Of a stretch of 64,000 bases of DNA, positions 4,913-17,136 are shown one piece after another. Source of the DNA: Opitutia bacterium Tous-C1TDCM (GTDB taxonomy: Bacteria; Verrucomicrobiota; Verrucomicrobiia; Opitutales; Opitutaceae); contig NEUS01000002.1 in NCBI GenBank assembly GCA_002288455.1, positions 16,797 through 80,796 on the forward strand, given 5' to 3'. The notes beneath the pieces are model-generated. The model made no database searches. It had not been told where the DNA came from and saw only the letters and a list, made by a program, of their open reading frames with translations. The position numbers and the translations under genes were made by a program. The first letter of the stretch is position 1, and each line of letters begins with the position of its first letter.

Positions 4913-6037
4913 TTAGAAGCCATTGATTCTTAGCTGGCTGGGAGAGTCGGTTCCGAAGGCGGTGGCCTCGGGTTTTGCCAGCAGTTCAGGGAGAGGGGAT
5001 TCCTCCCAGATGCAGACGCTGACGGGTTGGAGGATTTGATCCAAGGAGCCGGGCAGGGCGAAGCGTTGCTGGGCTATGGCCACCAGAAGGTGCGCGCAGA
5101 GCGCGCTCCGGACTTGGATGCGGACGCCGTTGGGCGAAGTGGCGAAGAAGGTCCCCAGGCTCAGATGCGGTTTGATCCCGCGGAAAAAGAGTTCGACCTG
5201 CCAGCGGCGGCGGTAGAGTTCGGCGATGACCGCGGGGGCGAGCGCGACCTGATGGGTGAGGAAGACGAAGGTGTGGCCGTGTTCCGGGTCGACATAGCGG
5301 ATGCGGCGCAGCGGCTCCGGATACGCGCGGGCGGACGGGGCGCGACGCAGGACGATGACTTGGTCGCAGCGCAGCCCGCCGGCTTTGTCGACCGGGTGGA
5401 GCGCACGGCGCGGAAGCGCAGGCCGGAGCGGGTGCAGCCGCCGGAAGTCGAGGTAGCCCCGGTCCATGATGTAGTACGAGCCCGGATACACGGGGACTTC
5501 GTCCGGCCCCGCCACCTCGTGCCGGTCGCCGGCCGTCACGCTGGCGAAACGCGGCAATTCCAGCGCGACATCCAGCAGGACGTTGAGCCGGACCGCCGTC
5601 TGGGACTGCTGGCGGTGGGCCCACGGGCACAGCGCCAGGCTCACGTCGATCAGACTCGCGTCGAAGGCCAGGATGTCGGCGGCCACCGGCGCGGGCGTTG
5701 TGCCCCGCCCCCGCCGGACCCGCCGCAGCAGCACCTCCGTCGCCCGCGCGACGACCCGCCAGTCGCGGTGCTCGTTCGCGTCCGCGAGATTGCAGCGGGA
5801 CACCCGGCCGCGGATCCCCGCGTGGTACAGCCGGTCCGGCCGGGCGTTCAGACACGCCTCCAGAACCCGCAAGCTCCGCCGACGGTTCAGCCGGGCAAAC
5901 ACCATGCACGCGAAGTGATCGTACGCGGAGAACCGGCGCGGCCTCCGCACCATCGGAGGCTGCGCCGCACAGCGCTCAAACTCCGCTGGCCGGATCCCTT
6001 CCAGCACCTGCGCAAATACACTTCGGGTGAGGTTCAT
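4913..6037 (-). CDS. IS4-family transposase
   Basis: DDE transposase of 374 residues that catalyses cut-and-paste movement of the surrounding element. The N-terminal domain (about 1-115) has the DUF4372 pattern, including FSAYDHFACMVFA and GIRGRVSRCNLADANEHRDW. The catalytic Asp residues are in ILAFDASLIDV and in YIMDRGYLDF. The IS4 signature Y-x2-R-x3-E-x6-K is complete in YRRRWQVELFFRGIK. Length and motifs indicate an intact, potentially active enzyme. The ATG at 6037 starts at the canonical N-terminus. Plus-strand ORFs over this gene are shadows. Confidence 0.94.
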   Translation of the reverse strand: MNLTRSVFAQVLEGIRPAEFERCAAQPPMVRRPRRFSAYDHFACMVFARLNRRRSLRVLEACLNARPDRLYHAGIRGRVSRCNLADANEHRDWRVVARATEVLLRRVRRGRGTTPAPVAADILAFDASLIDVSLALCPWAHRQQSQTAVRLNVLLDVALELPRFASVTAGDRHEVAGPDEVPVYPGSYYIMDRGYLDFRRLHPLRPALPRRALHPVDKAGGLRCDQVIVLRRAPSARAYPEPLRRIRYVDPEHGHTFVFLTHQVALAPAVIAELYRRRWQVELFFRGIKPHLSLGTFFATSPNGVRIQVRSALCAHLLVAIAQQRFALPGSLDQILQPVSVCIWEESPLPELLAKPEATAFGTDSPSQLRINGF

Positions 6038-6179: not shown

Positions 6180-7649
6180 TCAGACCTCGGATTCCACGCC
6201 GGCGTCGATCGGGTCGCCGGCGTCGCGGTATTCCTGCAATTTGTTGCGCAGGGTCCGGATGCTGATGCCCAGCGCCGCGGCGGCCTGCGTGCGGTTCCCC
6301 GACGTTTGCCGCAGCGCCGCGCGAATCGCCTGCTTTTCCAATTCCTCGAGGCGCAGAACCTGGCCGTTGCCGTCGGTCAGCCCGGAAGGCCCGCCCGCGG
6401 CCGACGCGACGCCGTCGTTGACGATCCCGACCGGCTCGGTCTCGCCCCACGGGGCCATGGAATCGGTGTCGGTCGCCGTCAGATCGCCCGGCAACCCGAG
6501 CGCCGCCGCGGAAACCGGCCGGCCGGATTCGGAAAGGATGACGGCGCGCTCGACCGTGTTTTGCAGCTCGCGGACGTTGCCCGGCCAACGGTAGCCGAGC
6601 AGGGCCGCGCGCGCGGAATCGGAAAAACCGGTGACGCGGACGCCGTGCTTGCGGGTGAACCGCATGAGAAAATGATCGGCCAGCAACCCGATATCCTCGG
6701 TGCGTTCGCGCAACGCCGGCACGTGGACGGGGAACACGTTGAGCCGGTAATAGAGATCCTGGCGGAATTCGCCCTTGGTCACGTTGCTCATCAGGTCGCG
6801 GTTCGAAGTCGCGATGATGCGGACGTTGACCTTGATCGTGCGGCTGCCGCCGACGCGCTCGAATTCCCGTTCCTGCAGGACGCGCAGCAGCTTGGCCTGG
6901 AGACTCGGGGGGATTTCGCTGACTTCGTCGAGCAGCAGGGTGCCGTTGTTCGCGAGTTCGAAGCGGCCTTCGCGCCGCTCCGTCGCGCCGGTGAAGGCGC
7001 CGCGTTCATGGCCGAAAAATTCGCTTTCGATCAGGGTTTGGGAAACGGCGGCGCAGTTGACCTTGATGAACGGGTGGCCGCGCCGGGGGCTGCGCCGGTA
7101 GAATTCGCGCGAGATCATTTCCTTGCCCGTGCCGCTTTCGCCGGTGACGAGCACGGTGGCGTCGGTCGGCGCCACACGGTCGATCAACTGCCGCAGCCGC
7201 GTCATCGCCGGACTCCGGCCCACGAGGAGCGCGTCTTCGTCGTCGGGATTGTCGCTGAGGAGGTTGTTGACCTTGACCAGCTGCCGGTAGGTCTGCGCCT
7301 TCCGCAAAATGACATCGATCTGCGAAGGCGAAAACGGCTTGAGCACGTAGTCGAACGCCCCGGCGCGCATGCAGGCGACGGCGGACTCGATCGACCCGAA
7401 ACCGGTCACCATCACCACCAGCGGCCGTTCGGGAATCGTGGCGACCTGTTCGAGAAACTTGAGCCCGTCGCCGTCCGGCAACCGCAAATCGAGCATCATC
7501 AGATCGAACTGCTCGCGGGCCAGATGCGCCTGCGCTTCCGCCAGACTGCCGGCCACGCTCACCGGCAATTTATGCCGCATGAAAATGCTCTGGAGGAGAT
7601 TGCGGACGACCAAATCGTCTTCGACGATCAGGATTTTCTCGAATGACAT
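6180..7649 (-). CDS. NtrC-family sigma-54-dependent response regulator
   Basis: DNA-binding activator that hydrolyses ATP to open sigma-54 promoters, here probably linked to motility because flagellar genes follow. The 489-residue protein has a receiver domain (about 1-120; phosphoacceptor Asp in [11 protein letters not shown], Lys in YVLKPF), an AAA+ domain (about 145-385; Walker A GESGTGKE, sigma-54 contact loop GAFTGA, Walker B LLLDEVSE) and a C-terminal Fis-type helix-turn-helix ([16 protein letters not shown]). The track ORF beginning at 8249 runs through an unrelated upstream stretch; [12 protein letters not shown] at 7649 is the natural receiver start. No cognate kinase is adjacent, and the IS element lies just downstream. 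A FlrC/FlbD-type flagellar role is an inference. Confidence 0.92.
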
Positions 7650-7756
7650 GAGCGGGCGTCGATAGGGGCGAAAAGCGGAGTTGAGCGCGCCACTCAAGTG
7701 AGCCGACCCGGCCGATTCAAACAAATGTTCACCCCGGTGCCCCGGGGATTTCCGCC

Positions 7757-8200
7757 TCAGTAGCTTCCGCCGAGCAAAAGACCGACCGCCTGCTCCACTT
7801 CCGCCGGGTTGAAGGGTTTCGGCAGATAGCCGCAGCGGGCATCGGCGCCCCATCCCGCAAAGTGCGAACGGTCCTTGCCGCTGGTGATCAGGACCCGCAG
7901 GTCGGGGGCGAGTTCGCGCAGCCGGCGGCCGACGGCGATCCCGTCGCCGTCGGGCAATCCGGCATCGATGATGGCCAACTCCAGCCGCGCCCCGTCGGCG
8001 CGAAAACACTTCAGCGCCTCGAGACAGGAACGCGCCCGGATCACGGTCCGGCCAAGGCGCCGCAAGATCATCGTGATCAGCCCCGCGACGGCGTCGTCGT
8101 CCTCGAGCAACAGAATAGCGCGCGGCGGCGGGGGTTCGACCGCGGTCGCGGCCGGCACCGGGGCAAAACCCCAGGGATTGGGCAGCGCTGGAGCGGGCAT
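7757..8200 (-). CDS. Single-domain response regulator (receiver only)
   Basis: A 147-residue protein with a Pro/Ala-rich N-terminal tail of about 27 residues followed by one CheY-like receiver domain. The acidic pocket (LLLEDDD), the phosphoacceptor Asp in LAIIDAGLPDG, the Ser of VLITSGKD and the Lys of YLPKPF are all present. No output domain follows. It lies 107 bases upstream of the NtrC-type gene on the same strand, so the two may be co-transcribed and share a phosphorelay. It could act as a phosphate sink or on a protein partner; which one cannot be told from the sequence. Confidence 0.85.
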   Translation of the reverse strand: MPAPALPNPWGFAPVPAATAVEPPPPRAILLLEDDDAVAGLITMILRRLGRTVIRARSCLEALKCFRADGARLELAIIDAGLPDGDGIAVGRRLRELAPDLRVLITSGKDRSHFAGWGADARCGYLPKPFNPAEVEQAVGLLLGGSY

Positions 8201-8282
8201 GGCGCAGGCAACGACACAGTCCGGGAATTCTTGAGCGAAAAGTCCTCAAGTTCGCCCCGGGGCGACCGATTCCTGATTAGCC

Positions 8283-12716: not shown

Positions 12717-12744
12717 TAAAGGTTTACCCGCCCCGCGACGATAG
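12717..12744 (+). promoter_or_regulatory. Sigma-28-type promoter for flagellin gene 1
   Basis: TAAA, 16 bases, then GACGATAG. The -35 element is perfect and the -10 element matches 6 of 8 positions of GCCGATAA; spacing is one base longer than consensus. The expected start is near 12751, which gives a leader of about 95 bases before the flagellin ATG at 12847. It diverges from the fliD promoter. Confidence 0.65.
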
Positions 12745-12773
12745 CTGGTCCTGTCGGGAAAAATGTCCTGACC

Positions 12774-12846
12774 GGCGCGATCCGGAGCCGCTCCCCCGGA
12801 TACGAATGTGACACGGACGTCACGCTTAGCATCAAGGAAGATCATC
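12774..12846 (+). promoter_or_regulatory. Structured 5' leader of flagellin mRNA 1 (CsrA-like two-site layout)
   Basis: After the box GGCGCGATCCGG come two hairpins. Hairpin I has arms ATCCGG (12780-12785) and CCGGAT (12796-12801). Hairpin II is GTGAC-ACGGAC-GTCAC (12808-12823) and exposes a GGA in its six-base loop. The ribosome-binding site AAGGAAG (12834-12840) supplies a second GGA. The second flagellin gene has the same layout at the same distance from its ATG, with a compensatory base-pair change in hairpin II. In Bacillus, CsrA represses hag through just such a hairpin-loop GGA plus a site at the Shine-Dalgarno; assigning CsrA here is inference. Confidence 0.6.
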
Positions 12847-13662
12847 ATGTCAGTTGTCATCAACACGAACTTCGCTGCCACCGTGGCGGCGAACAACCTC
12901 GCCGCCTCCAACGCTTCGTTGCAGAAGAGCCTCAACCGGCTCTCCAGCGGCTCCAAGATTGTCACCCCGGCGGACGACGCCGGCGGCCTGGCCGTCTCCA
13001 TGAAATTGTCCGCCGCCGCCCGCCGCCAGGGCGCGGTCACGACCAACATCGGCAACGCCGTCTCCTTCCTGCAGACGCAGGACGGTGTGCTCAAAGTCGC
13101 CGGCAAGGTGCTCGACCGCATGGGCGAGCTGAAGACCCTCTACGCCGATCCGACCAAGAGCTCGAGCGATCTCGCCAACTACGACTCGGAGTTCACCGAA
13201 CTCCAGACGCAGCTGAGCGACCTCGCCACCGAGGAGTTCAACTCCGTGTCGCTCTTCGGCAGCGGCGACCTCAGTGTCAGCGTGACCGAAGACGGCGCCA
13301 CCTCGGTGTCGATCCTCGGCCGCGACCTGTCCGGCACCGCCGCAGGCATCGGAGCCCTGACGGACACGGGCGTCGCCTCCCTCGGCGACATCGACCTCTC
13401 CGACATCACCACGGCCATCCAGCATGTCGCCACGTTCCGCGCCGAGAACGGTGCGGAACAGAGCCGCTTCGGCTTCGCCGCCGAATTGCTCACGGTCAAC
13501 AAAGCCAACCTCGAGGCCGCCTCGAGCCGGATCACGGATGTGGATGTGGCCTCGGAATCGACCCAGCTCGCCCGCTGGAATATTCTGGTCCAGTCCGGCA
13601 CCGCGATGCTCTCGCAGGCCAACCAGAGCACGCAGATCGCCCTCCGCCTCATCGGCGGCTAA
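12847..13662 (+). CDS. Flagellin (first of two tandem copies)
   Basis: Structural subunit of the flagellar filament, exported by the flagellar type III system. The 271-residue protein is short: the conserved N-terminal helices (MSVVINTN, LNRLSSGSKIVTPADDAGGLAVS) and C-terminal helices (SRITDVDVASESTQLARWNILVQSGTAML) are joined by only a small middle domain, so the D2/D3 surface domains of enterobacterial flagellin are missing. The start at 12847 is set by the flagellin N-terminus and by AAGGAAG six bases upstream; the ORF-track start at 12808 adds leader sequence. Ser/Thr residues in the middle domain are candidate sites for pseudaminic-acid modification. Confidence 0.97.
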   Translation: MSVVINTNFAATVAANNLAASNASLQKSLNRLSSGSKIVTPADDAGGLAVSMKLSAAARRQGAVTTNIGNAVSFLQTQDGVLKVAGKVLDRMGELKTLYADPTKSSSDLANYDSEFTELQTQLSDLATEEFNSVSLFGSGDLSVSVTEDGATSVSILGRDLSGTAAGIGALTDTGVASLGDIDLSDITTAIQHVATFRAENGAEQSRFGFAAELLTVNKANLEAASSRITDVDVASESTQLARWNILVQSGTAMLSQANQSTQIALRLIGG

Positions 13663-13950
13663 GCGGGCCCGCCCTGAACCGCGGCGCGGCGGGAGCAGTT
13701 TCCCGCCGCCCGCCCGGGCCCCGGCTTCCCGCCGGGTCCGCCCAGGGGCCGTAGTCAGCCACTTTGCAGTGTCAGTCGTAAGTCCGCTCCGCCGGTCCGG
13801 TTCGCCGGGTCGCCGACGGGGCCGAGCCAGTGTTCGTCAGTTCATTGAAAGTTAATCCGACGGCTTGGGGAGCGTTTCCTGAACACACCCTGAGGTGGCG
13901 CGCTGCATTGCGGCAGCTCGTCCTGAAACTTTGCGGCCCTTGCCGCAGAC
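13663..13950 (+). other. Spacer between flagellin genes
   Basis: No gene is supported in these 288 bases. It holds a nine-pair hairpin just after fliC1 (13686-13709) and, near 13894-13910, a sigma-54-like element TGGCGCG-CTGCA-TTGCG whose GG-to-GC spacing is 11 rather than 10. No sigma-28 element was found in front of the second flagellin. Confidence 0.5.
13686..13709 (+). terminator. Hairpin after flagellin gene 1, without T run
   Basis: Perfect arms GCGGCGGGA / TCCCGCCGC with loop GCAGTT lie 23 bases after the stop codon. No T run follows, so it may be an mRNA 3'-end stabiliser or processing signal rather than a true terminator. Confidence 0.45.
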
Positions 13951-14023
13951 GGCGCGATCCGGCGCCGACCAAACCGGATACGTGGCGACGACGGACAGTC
14001 GCACCCATCAAGGAAACGATACC
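13951..14023 (+). promoter_or_regulatory. Structured 5' leader of flagellin mRNA 2 (CsrA-like two-site layout)
   Basis: This leader is homologous to 12774-12846 and, like it, is 73 bases from the box GGCGCGATCCGG to the ATG. Hairpin I is ATCCGG (13957-13962) with CCGGAT (13974-13979). Hairpin II is GCGAC with GTCGC (13985-14002) and carries ACGGAC in its loop. Relative to gene 1 a T-A pair in the hairpin II stem became C-G, while the loop stayed constant. AAGGAAA precedes the ATG and lies in the shared ten-base string CATCAAGGAA. Confidence 0.6.
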
Positions 14024-14836
14024 ATGTCAGTCGTGATTAATACCAACTACGCAGCTACGGTTGCCTCCAACAACCTGGCTGCTTCGAATGCCTCCCTGCA
14101 ACGGAGCCTCAACCGGCTCTCGAGCGGCTCGAAAATCGTGAACCCGTCGGATGACGCCGGCGGTCTCGCGGTCTCGATGAAGTTGTCCGCCGCGGCGCGC
14201 CGTCAAGGTGCGACCGAGACGAACATCGGCAATTCCGTATCCTACCTGCAGACGCAGGACGGTGCCCTCAAGGTGGCGGCGAAGGTCCTCGATCGTATGA
14301 GCGAGCTGAAGACCCTCTACGCCGATCCCACCAAGAGCTCCAGCGATCTCGCGAACTACGACTCGGAGTTCACCGAACTCCAGACGCAGCTCACGGACAT
14401 CTCCGGGGAAACGTTCAACAGCGTCGCTCTCTTCGGCAGCGCCGGCCTCTCGGTCGACGTGACCGAGGACGCGGCCACGAGCGTCACCGTCAAGGGCCGC
14501 GACCTCTCCGGGTCCGCGGACGGCGTCGGCACTCTGACCGACACCGGCGTCAGCTCTCTCGGGGACATCGACCTGAGCGACATCACCGATGCGATCGAGA
14601 ATGTGGCCACGTTCCGCGCCGAAAACGGCGCCGAGCAGAGCCATCTTGGCTTCGCTTCGGAATTGCTGTCGGTCAACAAGGCCAACCTGGAGGCCGCCTC
14701 GAGCCGCATCACGGATGTGGACGTCGCATCGGAATCGACCCAGCTCGCACGCTGGAACATTCTGGTGCAGTCCGGCACCGCGATGCTGTCGCAGGCCAAC
14801 CAGAGCGCGCAGAGCGCTCTCCGCCTCATCGGCTAA
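14024..14836 (+). CDS. Flagellin (second tandem copy)
   Basis: A 270-residue filament subunit, clearly a paralogue of the preceding gene: the N- and C-terminal helical regions are nearly identical, and differences cluster in the middle domain (for example LTDISGETFNSVALFGSAGL here against LSDLATEEFNSVSLFGSGDL in copy 1). Like copy 1 it lacks large surface domains. The start at 14024 matches the family N-terminus; the ORF-track start at 13895 runs through the structured leader. The gene has its own leader but no visible sigma-28 promoter, so it may be read from the first promoter or use another sigma factor. Confidence 0.97.
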   Translation: MSVVINTNYAATVASNNLAASNASLQRSLNRLSSGSKIVNPSDDAGGLAVSMKLSAAARRQGATETNIGNSVSYLQTQDGALKVAAKVLDRMSELKTLYADPTKSSSDLANYDSEFTELQTQLTDISGETFNSVALFGSAGLSVDVTEDAATSVTVKGRDLSGSADGVGTLTDTGVSSLGDIDLSDITDAIENVATFRAENGAEQSHLGFASELLSVNKANLEAASSRITDVDVASESTQLARWNILVQSGTAMLSQANQSAQSALRLIG

Positions 14837-15159: not shown

Positions 15160-17136
15160 ATGTCCGACCCCGCCGCGCTCTTCGCCACCGCCGTCGCCCG
15201 CCATCGCGCCGGCCGCCCGGCCGAAGCCGCGCCGCTCTACGAACAAGTCCTCGCCGTTGCGCCGGACCACGCCGATTCGCTCCATCATCTCGGCCTGATT
15301 TCGCTCGACCGCGGCGAGGCCGCCCGCGCCGTCGCCCTCCTGGAGCGCGCCGCCGCGCTGCTGCCGGCGAATCCCCTCGTCCACCACCGGCACGCCCTCG
15401 CCTTGCGCGCCCTTCGGCGGTCCGACGACGCTCTCGCCGCCTTCCGCCGCGCCCTCGCCCTCGATCCGCGGCTCGCCGAAACCCAGCACCAACTCGGCAA
15501 TCTGCTCAAAGCCCTCGGCCGCTATCCCGAAGCCCTCGCCGTCCTTCGGCTCGCCGCTTCCCTCGCCCCCGACCGCGCCGCCGTGTGGCTCAACCTGGGC
15601 GTCGCCGCCCTTGAAACCGAGGCCCGCGCCGAAGCTCTCGCCGCCTTCAAACACGCCGTCGCCCTCGAACCCGATCGGCCCGAATCCCGGAATATTCTCG
15701 GCCACACCCTCGCCGCCGCCGCCCGCGGCACCGAAGCCCGCGCGGAATTCCTCGCCGCCCTGCAACTCCGCCCCGGCTACGCCCCGGCCCTCAACAATCT
15801 CGGCCGCCTCGCCCGCGCCTCCGGGCTGCTTCCCGAAGCCGTCGCGCATTTCCGCGCCGCCCTCGCCGCCGCCCCGTCCGCCGAAACCCACAGCAATCTG
15901 CTGCTCGCGCTCAACTACCTGCCCGATTTTCCGCCCGCCGAGGTCTTCGCCGAACACCGCCGCTGGGCCGAACGCTACGCCGACCCGCTCGCCCCGGCCT
16001 CGCCCCCGCCCGCCGCGGGCCCTGCCGCCACGTCGGCCCGCCTGCGGATCGGCTATCTGTCCCCCGACTTCAATCACCACGCCGTCGCCTACTTCATCGA
16101 GCCCGTGCTCGCCGCCCACGATCGCACCCGGTTCGAAGTTTTCTGCTACGCCAACGTCAAGGCGCCCGACCGCTTCACCGCCCGCCTGCAACAGCACGCG
16201 GAACACTGGCGCGATCTCGCCCGCCTCGACGACGAGGCCGCCGCCGCCCTGATCCGCGCCGACCGCCTCGATCTGCTCGTCGATCTCGCCGGCCACACCG
16301 CGCACCACCGCCTGCCCGTCCTCGCCCGCCGCCCCGCCCCCGCCCAGGCCACTTGGATCGGCTACCCGAACACCACCGGCCTGTCCGCGATCGATTTCCG
16401 TTTCACCGACGCAGTCAGCGATCCGCCCGGCACCACCGAGCATCTTTACGCCGAGAAACTCGTCCGCCTGCCCGGTCCGTTTTCCTGCTATCGGCCCGAC
16501 GACGACGCGCCCGCCGTCGGGCCGCTGCCCGCGACGGCCCGCGGCTTCGTTACCTTCGGCTGCTTCAATCATCTCGCGAAACTCACTCCCGCGGTACTCG
16601 CCCTCTGGGCCGAACTGCTCCGCGAACTCCCGTCGTCACGGCTCTTGCTGAAGTCGCGCGGCCTCGGCGATCCGGCCGTATCCGATCGCCTGCGCGCGAC
16701 CTTTGCCGCGGCCGGCATCGCCGCCGAACGCATCCGCTGCCATGGCGAAGAACTTTCCGTCGCCGACCATCTTTCGCTTTATCACGAAGTCGACATCGCC
16801 CTCGATCCGTTCCCGTACAACGGCACCACCACCACCTGCGAAGCCCTATGGATGGGCGTGCCCGTCGTCGCCCTCGCCGGTGAAGTGCACGCCGCCCGCG
16901 TCGGAGTGAGCCTGCTCACCCACACCGGGCTCGCCGACTGGATCGCCGCCACGCCCGCCGACTATGGGCGCATCGCGCTCGGCGCCGCCCGCGATCTGCC
17001 GCGCTTGGCCGCTTTGCGCGCCGGACTTCGCGAGCAGCTGCGCCGCAGTCCGCTGTGCGCGGCCCACGAATTCACCCGCGGTCTCGAAGACGTTTACGTC
17101 GGCCTCGTCCGCCCGCCGGCCGCGCCGTTGGCCTGA
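15160..17136 (+). CDS. TPR-containing GT41 (OGT-like) glycosyltransferase
   Basis: Cytoplasmic glycosyltransferase of the O-GlcNAc-transferase-like family, probably acting on flagellin because it directly follows the flagellin genes. The 658-residue protein has about seven TPR units (1-270; for example AETQHQLGNLLKALGRYPEAL), then the GT41 catalytic region (about 285-645) with RIGYLSPDFNHHAVAYF, DLLVDLAGHT, TWIGYPNTTG, TFGCFNHLAKLTP and the nucleotide-sugar loop DPFPYNGTTTTCEALWMGVPVV. The donor is not determinable. The ATG at 15160 is chosen because TPR sequence starts there; the track start at 14938 lies in the upstream terminator region. Confidence 0.9.
   Translation: MSDPAALFATAVARHRAGRPAEAAPLYEQVLAVAPDHADSLHHLGLISLDRGEAARAVALLERAAALLPANPLVHHRHALALRALRRSDDALAAFRRALALDPRLAETQHQLGNLLKALGRYPEALAVLRLAASLAPDRAAVWLNLGVAALETEARAEALAAFKHAVALEPDRPESRNILGHTLAAAARGTEARAEFLAALQLRPGYAPALNNLGRLARASGLLPEAVAHFRAALAAAPSAETHSNLLLALNYLPDFPPAEVFAEHRRWAERYADPLAPASPPPAAGPAATSARLRIGYLSPDFNHHAVAYFIEPVLAAHDRTRFEVFCYANVKAPDRFTARLQQHAEHWRDLARLDDEAAAALIRADRLDLLVDLAGHTAHHRLPVLARRPAPAQATWIGYPNTTGLSAIDFRFTDAVSDPPGTTEHLYAEKLVRLPGPFSCYRPDDDAPAVGPLPATARGFVTFGCFNHLAKLTPAVLALWAELLRELPSSRLLLKSRGLGDPAVSDRLRATFAAAGIAAERIRCHGEELSVADHLSLYHEVDIALDPFPYNGTTTTCEALWMGVPVVALAGEVHAARVGVSLLTHTGLADWIAATPADYGRIALGAARDLPRLAALRAGLREQLRRSPLCAAHEFTRGLEDVYVGLVRPPAAPLA

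Follow-up and report, generated by a model that had tools for sequence, protein, structure and literature searches.

The two tandem flagellin genes of Opitutia bacterium Tous-C1TDCM are preceded by structured leaders that are very likely cis-acting CsrA switches, in which, by analogy with Bacillus and Campylobacter, bridging of a hairpin (SL1) and the Shine–Dalgarno (SD) sequence would limit flagellin translation and FliW would relieve the block. Because the conserved leader has two putative CsrA sites, the production of flagellin is probably coupled to assembly of the flagellum, much as in those bacteria. The CsrA switch is of a known kind; the pseudoknot that precedes SL1 in these leaders is previously unlisted. 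The leaders extend the flagellin–FliW–CsrA checkpoint, as a putative mechanism, to Verrucomicrobiota with base-level evidence: the leaders have a defined series of parts that covary, that are specific to flagellin genes and that co-occur with csrA and fliW.

Leaders of the tandem flagellin genes

In the window (the whole stretch of 64,000 nucleotides analysed here), flagellin genes A (P0001; 12847..13662, + strand; 271 amino acids) and B (P0002; 14024..14836, + strand; 270 amino acids) lie in tandem beside a divergent fliD. Both products match Pfam Flagellin_N and Flagellin_C, and they are 86% identical. The first-pass annotation placed a leader of 73 bases before each ATG, and this holds: the two occupy 12774-12846 (ATG at 12847) and 13951-14023 (ATG at 14024), and both open with the box GGCGCGATCCGG, which alone is not significant (9 matches at ≤1 mismatch versus 4.9 expected). 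The element really starts about 20 bases further 5', however, with an additional hairpin (H0); a pseudoknot and a mini-hairpin at the SD were likewise absent from the earlier description.

Read 5' to 3' on the + strand, leader 1 consists of H0 (12753..12772; GTCGGGA/TCCTGAC); an H-type pseudoknot (12773..12801) with helices S1 (CGGC 12773-12776, GCCG 12787-12790) and S2 (ATCCGG 12780-12785, CCGGAT 12796-12801), both covarying; SL1 (12808..12823; stem GTGAC/GTCAC, hexaloop ACGGAC), the putative CsrA site 1; and SL2 (12831..12842; ATC-AAGGAA-GAT, covarying arms), in which the SD is putative CsrA site 2. Leader 2, on the same strand, has H0 (13930..13949; TTTGCGGC/GCCGCAGA) and a pseudoknot (13950..13979; S1, CGGCGC 13950-13955 and GCGCCG 13962-13967; S2, ATCCG 13957-13961 and CGGAT 13975-13979), each with covariation, followed by SL1 (13985..14002; stem GCGAC/GTCGC around ACGGAC; putative CsrA site 1) and SL2 with the SD (14007..14020; ATCAAGGAAACGAT; putative CsrA site 2). 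Between the leaders, GTGAC/GTCAC becomes GCGAC/GTCGC, a genuine compensatory T-A to C-G change, as had been noted. The loop that had been called constant has 6 nt in leader 1 (ACGGAC), whereas the same arms enclose 8 nt in leader 2 (GACGGACA). ATCCGG/CCGGAT, previously described as 'hairpin I', is not a simple hairpin but helix S2 of the pseudoknot.

The two leaders align closely, whereas the DNA 5' of both is unrelated and the third codon positions of genes A and B are only 64% identical; the leaders are therefore under constraint. A sigma-28-like promoter of gene A (12717..12744, + strand; TAAA-N15-CGACGATAG), proposed from its sequence and position, predicts a transcript start at about 12751, near H0, so that the whole leader would be structured. 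In 31 of 87 A-type homologues, a sigma-28-type pattern ends roughly 95 to 110 bases 5' of the ATG. A sigma-54 promoter for gene B was rejected (pattern in only 2/59).

Directly after the flagellins in the window, a TPR protein (15160-17136, + strand) matches glycosyltransferase family 41 (O-GlcNAc transferase-like), with a possible role in flagellin glycosylation. A sigma-54 activator with a receiver domain (6180-8249, − strand) is a candidate flagellar regulator, and a DDE transposase (DUF4372 and DDE_Tnp_1; 4913-6037, − strand) lies close to the flagellar genes.

Covariation in homologous leaders

GTDB genomes were searched with both flagellins, which yielded 77 loci (L003-L079), mostly from Opitutaceae and other Opitutia but extending to Pelagicoccus and one Spartobacterium. 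Nearly all of the approximately 150 readable flagellin gene starts have a common series: H0, pseudoknot, SL1 with an ACGGA or AAGGA loop, and ATCAAGGA(A/T) at the SD. Covariation, first proposed from the two leaders of the window, is strong in these further homologues (about 150 leaders). Energy folding of the single leaders is not significant (z of +1.0 and −0.5) and does not favour the structure, a point against it; single-sequence energy folding cannot draw pseudoknots, and the evidence for the structure is comparative.

When all column pairs of a MAFFT alignment of 72 leaders were scanned without guidance, the three that covary most strongly belonged to S2. Paired cells make up 92.5% of S1 and 91.7% of S2 in this alignment, both-sided changes occur at 6/6 pairs of S2 and 8/8 pairs of H0, and the covariation score is 0.487 versus 0.227 when shuffled and 0.057-0.142 when slid. 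S2 is represented by 49 different arm combinations and is fully paired in 54 of the 72 leaders, versus no more than 22 in any of 1000 re-dealt sets. The helix (ATCCGG/CCGGAT) encloses the 3' arm of S1 (CGGC/GCCG or CGGCGC/GCGCCG), and the lengths involved (S1, 4-6 bp; S2, 5-6 bp; L1, 0-3 nt; L3, 5-8 nt) fit a classical H-type pseudoknot and thus allow S1 and S2 to form together. We relied on covariation for the pseudoknot because GC-rich shuffles frequently score high when a single leader is compared with its shuffles; among AT-richer distant leaders, the combined pseudoknot test gave p of about 2e-7, with p near 1 for 5 of the 26 leaders.

Other, divergent families of the order have the same layout, always just 5' of SL1, and so does f34, a family from another part of the class; locus L121, for example, has ATGGG/CCCAT with TGCCGGC/GCCGGCA. 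In the class-level family f46, SL1 is kept but the region 5' of it folds differently, into a nested structure. The f46 leaders (L223, L225, L228, L229 and L231) share conserved helices nested in one another, together with AGGAA and a loop of GTGGT or ATGGT. Several lineages (L149, L131, L122, L179, L175 and L217) carry an ANGGA hexaloop on H0, which brings the CsrA-type sites to up to three per leader and means that the pseudoknot there is flanked by two CsrA-type hairpins. The pseudoknot does not look like a riboswitch (ligand aptamer): its loops differ in both sequence and length between leaders, and there is no conserved unpaired core. Pairing of a pseudoknot loop as an anti-SD was considered and rejected, as no conserved partner was seen.

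The putative CsrA hairpin SL1 was aligned in 37 distinct copies. The proportion of paired cells (97.3%) is partly selected, because copies were gathered by loop and stem, and the both-sided changes at 5/5 pairs are the stronger evidence. The covariation score is 0.754; shuffles gave 0.234 (0/500) and slid partners no more than 0.227. The loop GGA is invariant across the 37 copies. The loop GGA and the SD GGA lie 18-22 nt apart in 135 of the 147 leaders in which both could be measured (21 and 19 nt in the two leaders of the window), a spacing that falls inside the published dual-site CsrA range of 10-63 nt, with an optimum of >18 nt (PMC7652899). The SD itself, AAGGAA, is the loop of its own mini-hairpin, the arms of which are ATC/GAT, AAC/GTT, GTC/GAC or TAC/GTA in homologues and are lengthened to 5-6 bp in some lineages. 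Covariation of SL2 is modest, yet above all shuffles.

The combination is specific to flagellin starts. When ATG triplets were scored for an ANGGA hairpin (stem ≥5) plus an AGGA SD, only 2 of 1239 on both strands of the window qualified, both of them flagellin starts; among the 8412 ATGs of the 77 loci, 128 qualified, and the number of flagellin starts that passed was 126. A covariance model restricted to H0 and S1 recovered the two leaders from their own genome at E of about 1e-18; no other match had an E below 1 (the next is at E 1.2). Rfam 15, at gathering and permissive thresholds, gave no relevant match to the leaders, and we found no paper in the open-access literature searched that joins CsrA, flagellin and a leader pseudoknot.

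The candidate trans-acting genes csrA and fliW

A search of the genome for csrA and fliW found both genes side by side (csrA: PF02599, 77.5 bits, cut-off 27, 3.3e-21; fliW: PF02623, 96 bits, 4.2e-27). They lie on a different contig (C72) from genes A and B, in the order flgL-fliW-csrA-flagellin, with 10 bases from the end of fliW to the start of csrA. The Bacillus operon has the order flgL-fliW-csrA-hag. The analogy with CsrA and FliW thus reaches beyond what had first been claimed, because operon order and the SD GGA match too. The CsrA (84 amino acids) has the extended C terminus of a FliW-binding CsrA; longer CsrA C termini accompany FliW (PMC7366521). Its nearest solved chains are B. subtilis CsrA (1t3o) and the CsrA of the FliW complex 5dmb, and the FliW here matches the FliW of 5dmb.

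Among 132 genomes of the order, csrA is present in 27 and fliW in 25, 25/25 with csrA. Across 289 Verrucomicrobiota genomes, csrA occurs in 27, this flagellin type in 27 and both in 26 (Fisher p of about 1e-34, which ignores kinship and is indicative only). As csrA tracks this flagellin type, CsrA looks flagellum-dedicated here, which suggests that it is largely a flagellum-dedicated regulator in Verrucomicrobiota. Most members of the order that lack csrA have a different flagellin type; G086 is the only like-for-like negative, and it has no hairpin and no SD. The different type (about MSDISLSAGIRANL), exemplified by loci L153, L160 and L163, was seen with no csrA or fliW match in G003, G030, G040, G046, G054, G070, G072 and G105. 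Two genomes of about 1 Mb (G059 and G107, family f26) have an orphan CsrA, that is, csrA without fliW or flagellin matches.

Some observations count against the CsrA reading. One genome (G018) has the element, and csrA was not found in its assembly of 250 contigs; two of its congeners have csrA. Two Spartobacteria leaders (L079) have no GGA in the SD region, and some distant flagellins from csrA-bearing genomes have no clear hairpin. We count in the same way the third flagellin, directly 3' of csrA (C72; L001:1756-1820), which has neither a CsrA hairpin nor an SD-like GGA. A csrA-adjacent flagellin without a CsrA hairpin was also observed in at least 8 other genomes (including L224, L227, L230, L235, L251, L254 and L255); it is perhaps an unregulated or sensor flagellin.

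Proposed mechanism and alternatives

The CsrA-like switch proposed in the first-pass annotation is supported by the finding of csrA and fliW and by the strong covariation of homologues. We infer CsrA binding, repression and relief by FliW from the mechanism in Bacillus and Campylobacter (PMC6529632, PMC7652899, PMC4894983). One pocket of a CsrA dimer would hold the A-N-GGA loop of SL1 and the other the SD GGA in SL2, 19-21 nt away, and CsrA bridged in this manner would shut the ribosome out and block translation. FliW, encoded just upstream of csrA, would bind CsrA and free the mRNA. Cytoplasmic flagellin would titrate FliW, so that translation is proposed to resume only during flagellin export. 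H0 and the pseudoknot would form a stable head of the leader, most likely serving in mRNA protection, correct folding of SL1 or ribosome standby, for which tisB is a precedent (PMC7708055).

Several other readings were weighed against this one. If the pseudoknot and H0 were the main element, they would form a separate regulatory domain (for standby, as a site for a third protein or as a ligand-sensing RNA), with CsrA control on top. Such a domain would fit the strongest covariation in the alignment scan, the presence of the pseudoknot in f34 as well as in further families of the order, and the need for a pseudoknot in tisB standby translation (PMC7708055). We nevertheless consider it rather unlikely, as the pseudoknot loops are variable and, unlike known aptamers, lack a conserved unpaired core, and as f46 retains the CsrA hairpin although its upstream structure is another, nested one. 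It is more doubtful still that S1 and S2 are alternative helices between which the leader head toggles: although they are interleaved and both covary, their helix and loop lengths allow them to coexist, and no conserved switch partner (for example, an anti-SD) was seen.

The 86% protein identity of genes A and B might suggest that the likeness of their leaders reflects recent duplication only, without function. This reading has practically no chance of being correct and is refuted by covariation in homologues: paired positions co-change across 72 diverse leaders in which the loop GGA and SD are fixed, and the divergence at third codon positions (64% alike) and the unrelated upstream DNA also argue against it. 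Another GGA-reading protein is very unlikely to bind the SL1 loop in place of CsrA: csrA is the most evident candidate, and its distribution in the phylum follows that of this flagellin type.

Within the preferred reading of a CsrA switch, we regard it as possible, a little short of an even chance, that in Opitutia the switch acquired the conserved pseudoknot as a domain with a regulatory task of its own. It could provide ribosome standby, govern how CsrA is loaded between the two ANGGA hairpins on either side, or set the lifetime of the mRNA. If true, this would be a composite protein–RNA checkpoint not known in Bacillus or Campylobacter. The leaders also place a conserved pseudoknot beside the parts of a textbook switch. 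They offer a ready collection of natural variants with which to study the contribution of an RNA head domain to CsrA repression, and raise the question of why the csrA-adjacent flagellin escapes control.

Comparison with known systems

Judging from their names, the Rfam motifs Termite-flg (RF01729) and flg-Rhizobiales (RF01736) (PMC2864571) are likewise conserved RNAs associated with flagellar genes; the leaders have no Rfam 15 match to either. Standby translation of E. coli tisB mRNA requires a pseudoknot, and that leader, like the ones here, is structured and has its pseudoknot close to the 5' end (PMC7708055); tisB involves no CsrA, and a standby role for the pseudoknot here is a conjecture. 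In E. coli glgC, one CsrA dimer bridges a high-affinity upstream hairpin and the SD GGA (PMC7652899). The leaders likewise have an upstream hairpin and a GGA at the SD, whereas glgC is a metabolic target with sRNA antagonists in place of FliW (PMC7652899). With B. subtilis hag, they have in common two CsrA sites (putative here), one on the SD, and a fliW-csrA pair (PMC7652899, PMC6529632). The systems differ in that the csrA-adjacent flagellin here has no CsrA site, and the putatively regulated flagellins lie elsewhere and have a pseudoknot.

In Campylobacter jejuni flaA, gel shift, footprint and mutants proved a pair of ANGGA stem-loops, of which the second covers the ribosome-binding site (PMC4894983). 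The flaA leader is 45 nt long, with only the two stem-loops and no pseudoknot or 5' hairpin (PMC4894983), whereas the leaders here are about 95-100 nt long, belong to another phylum and are putative. What they have in common with flaA is two ANGGA stem-loops, compensatory changes, and both CsrA and FliW in the genome (PMC4894983).
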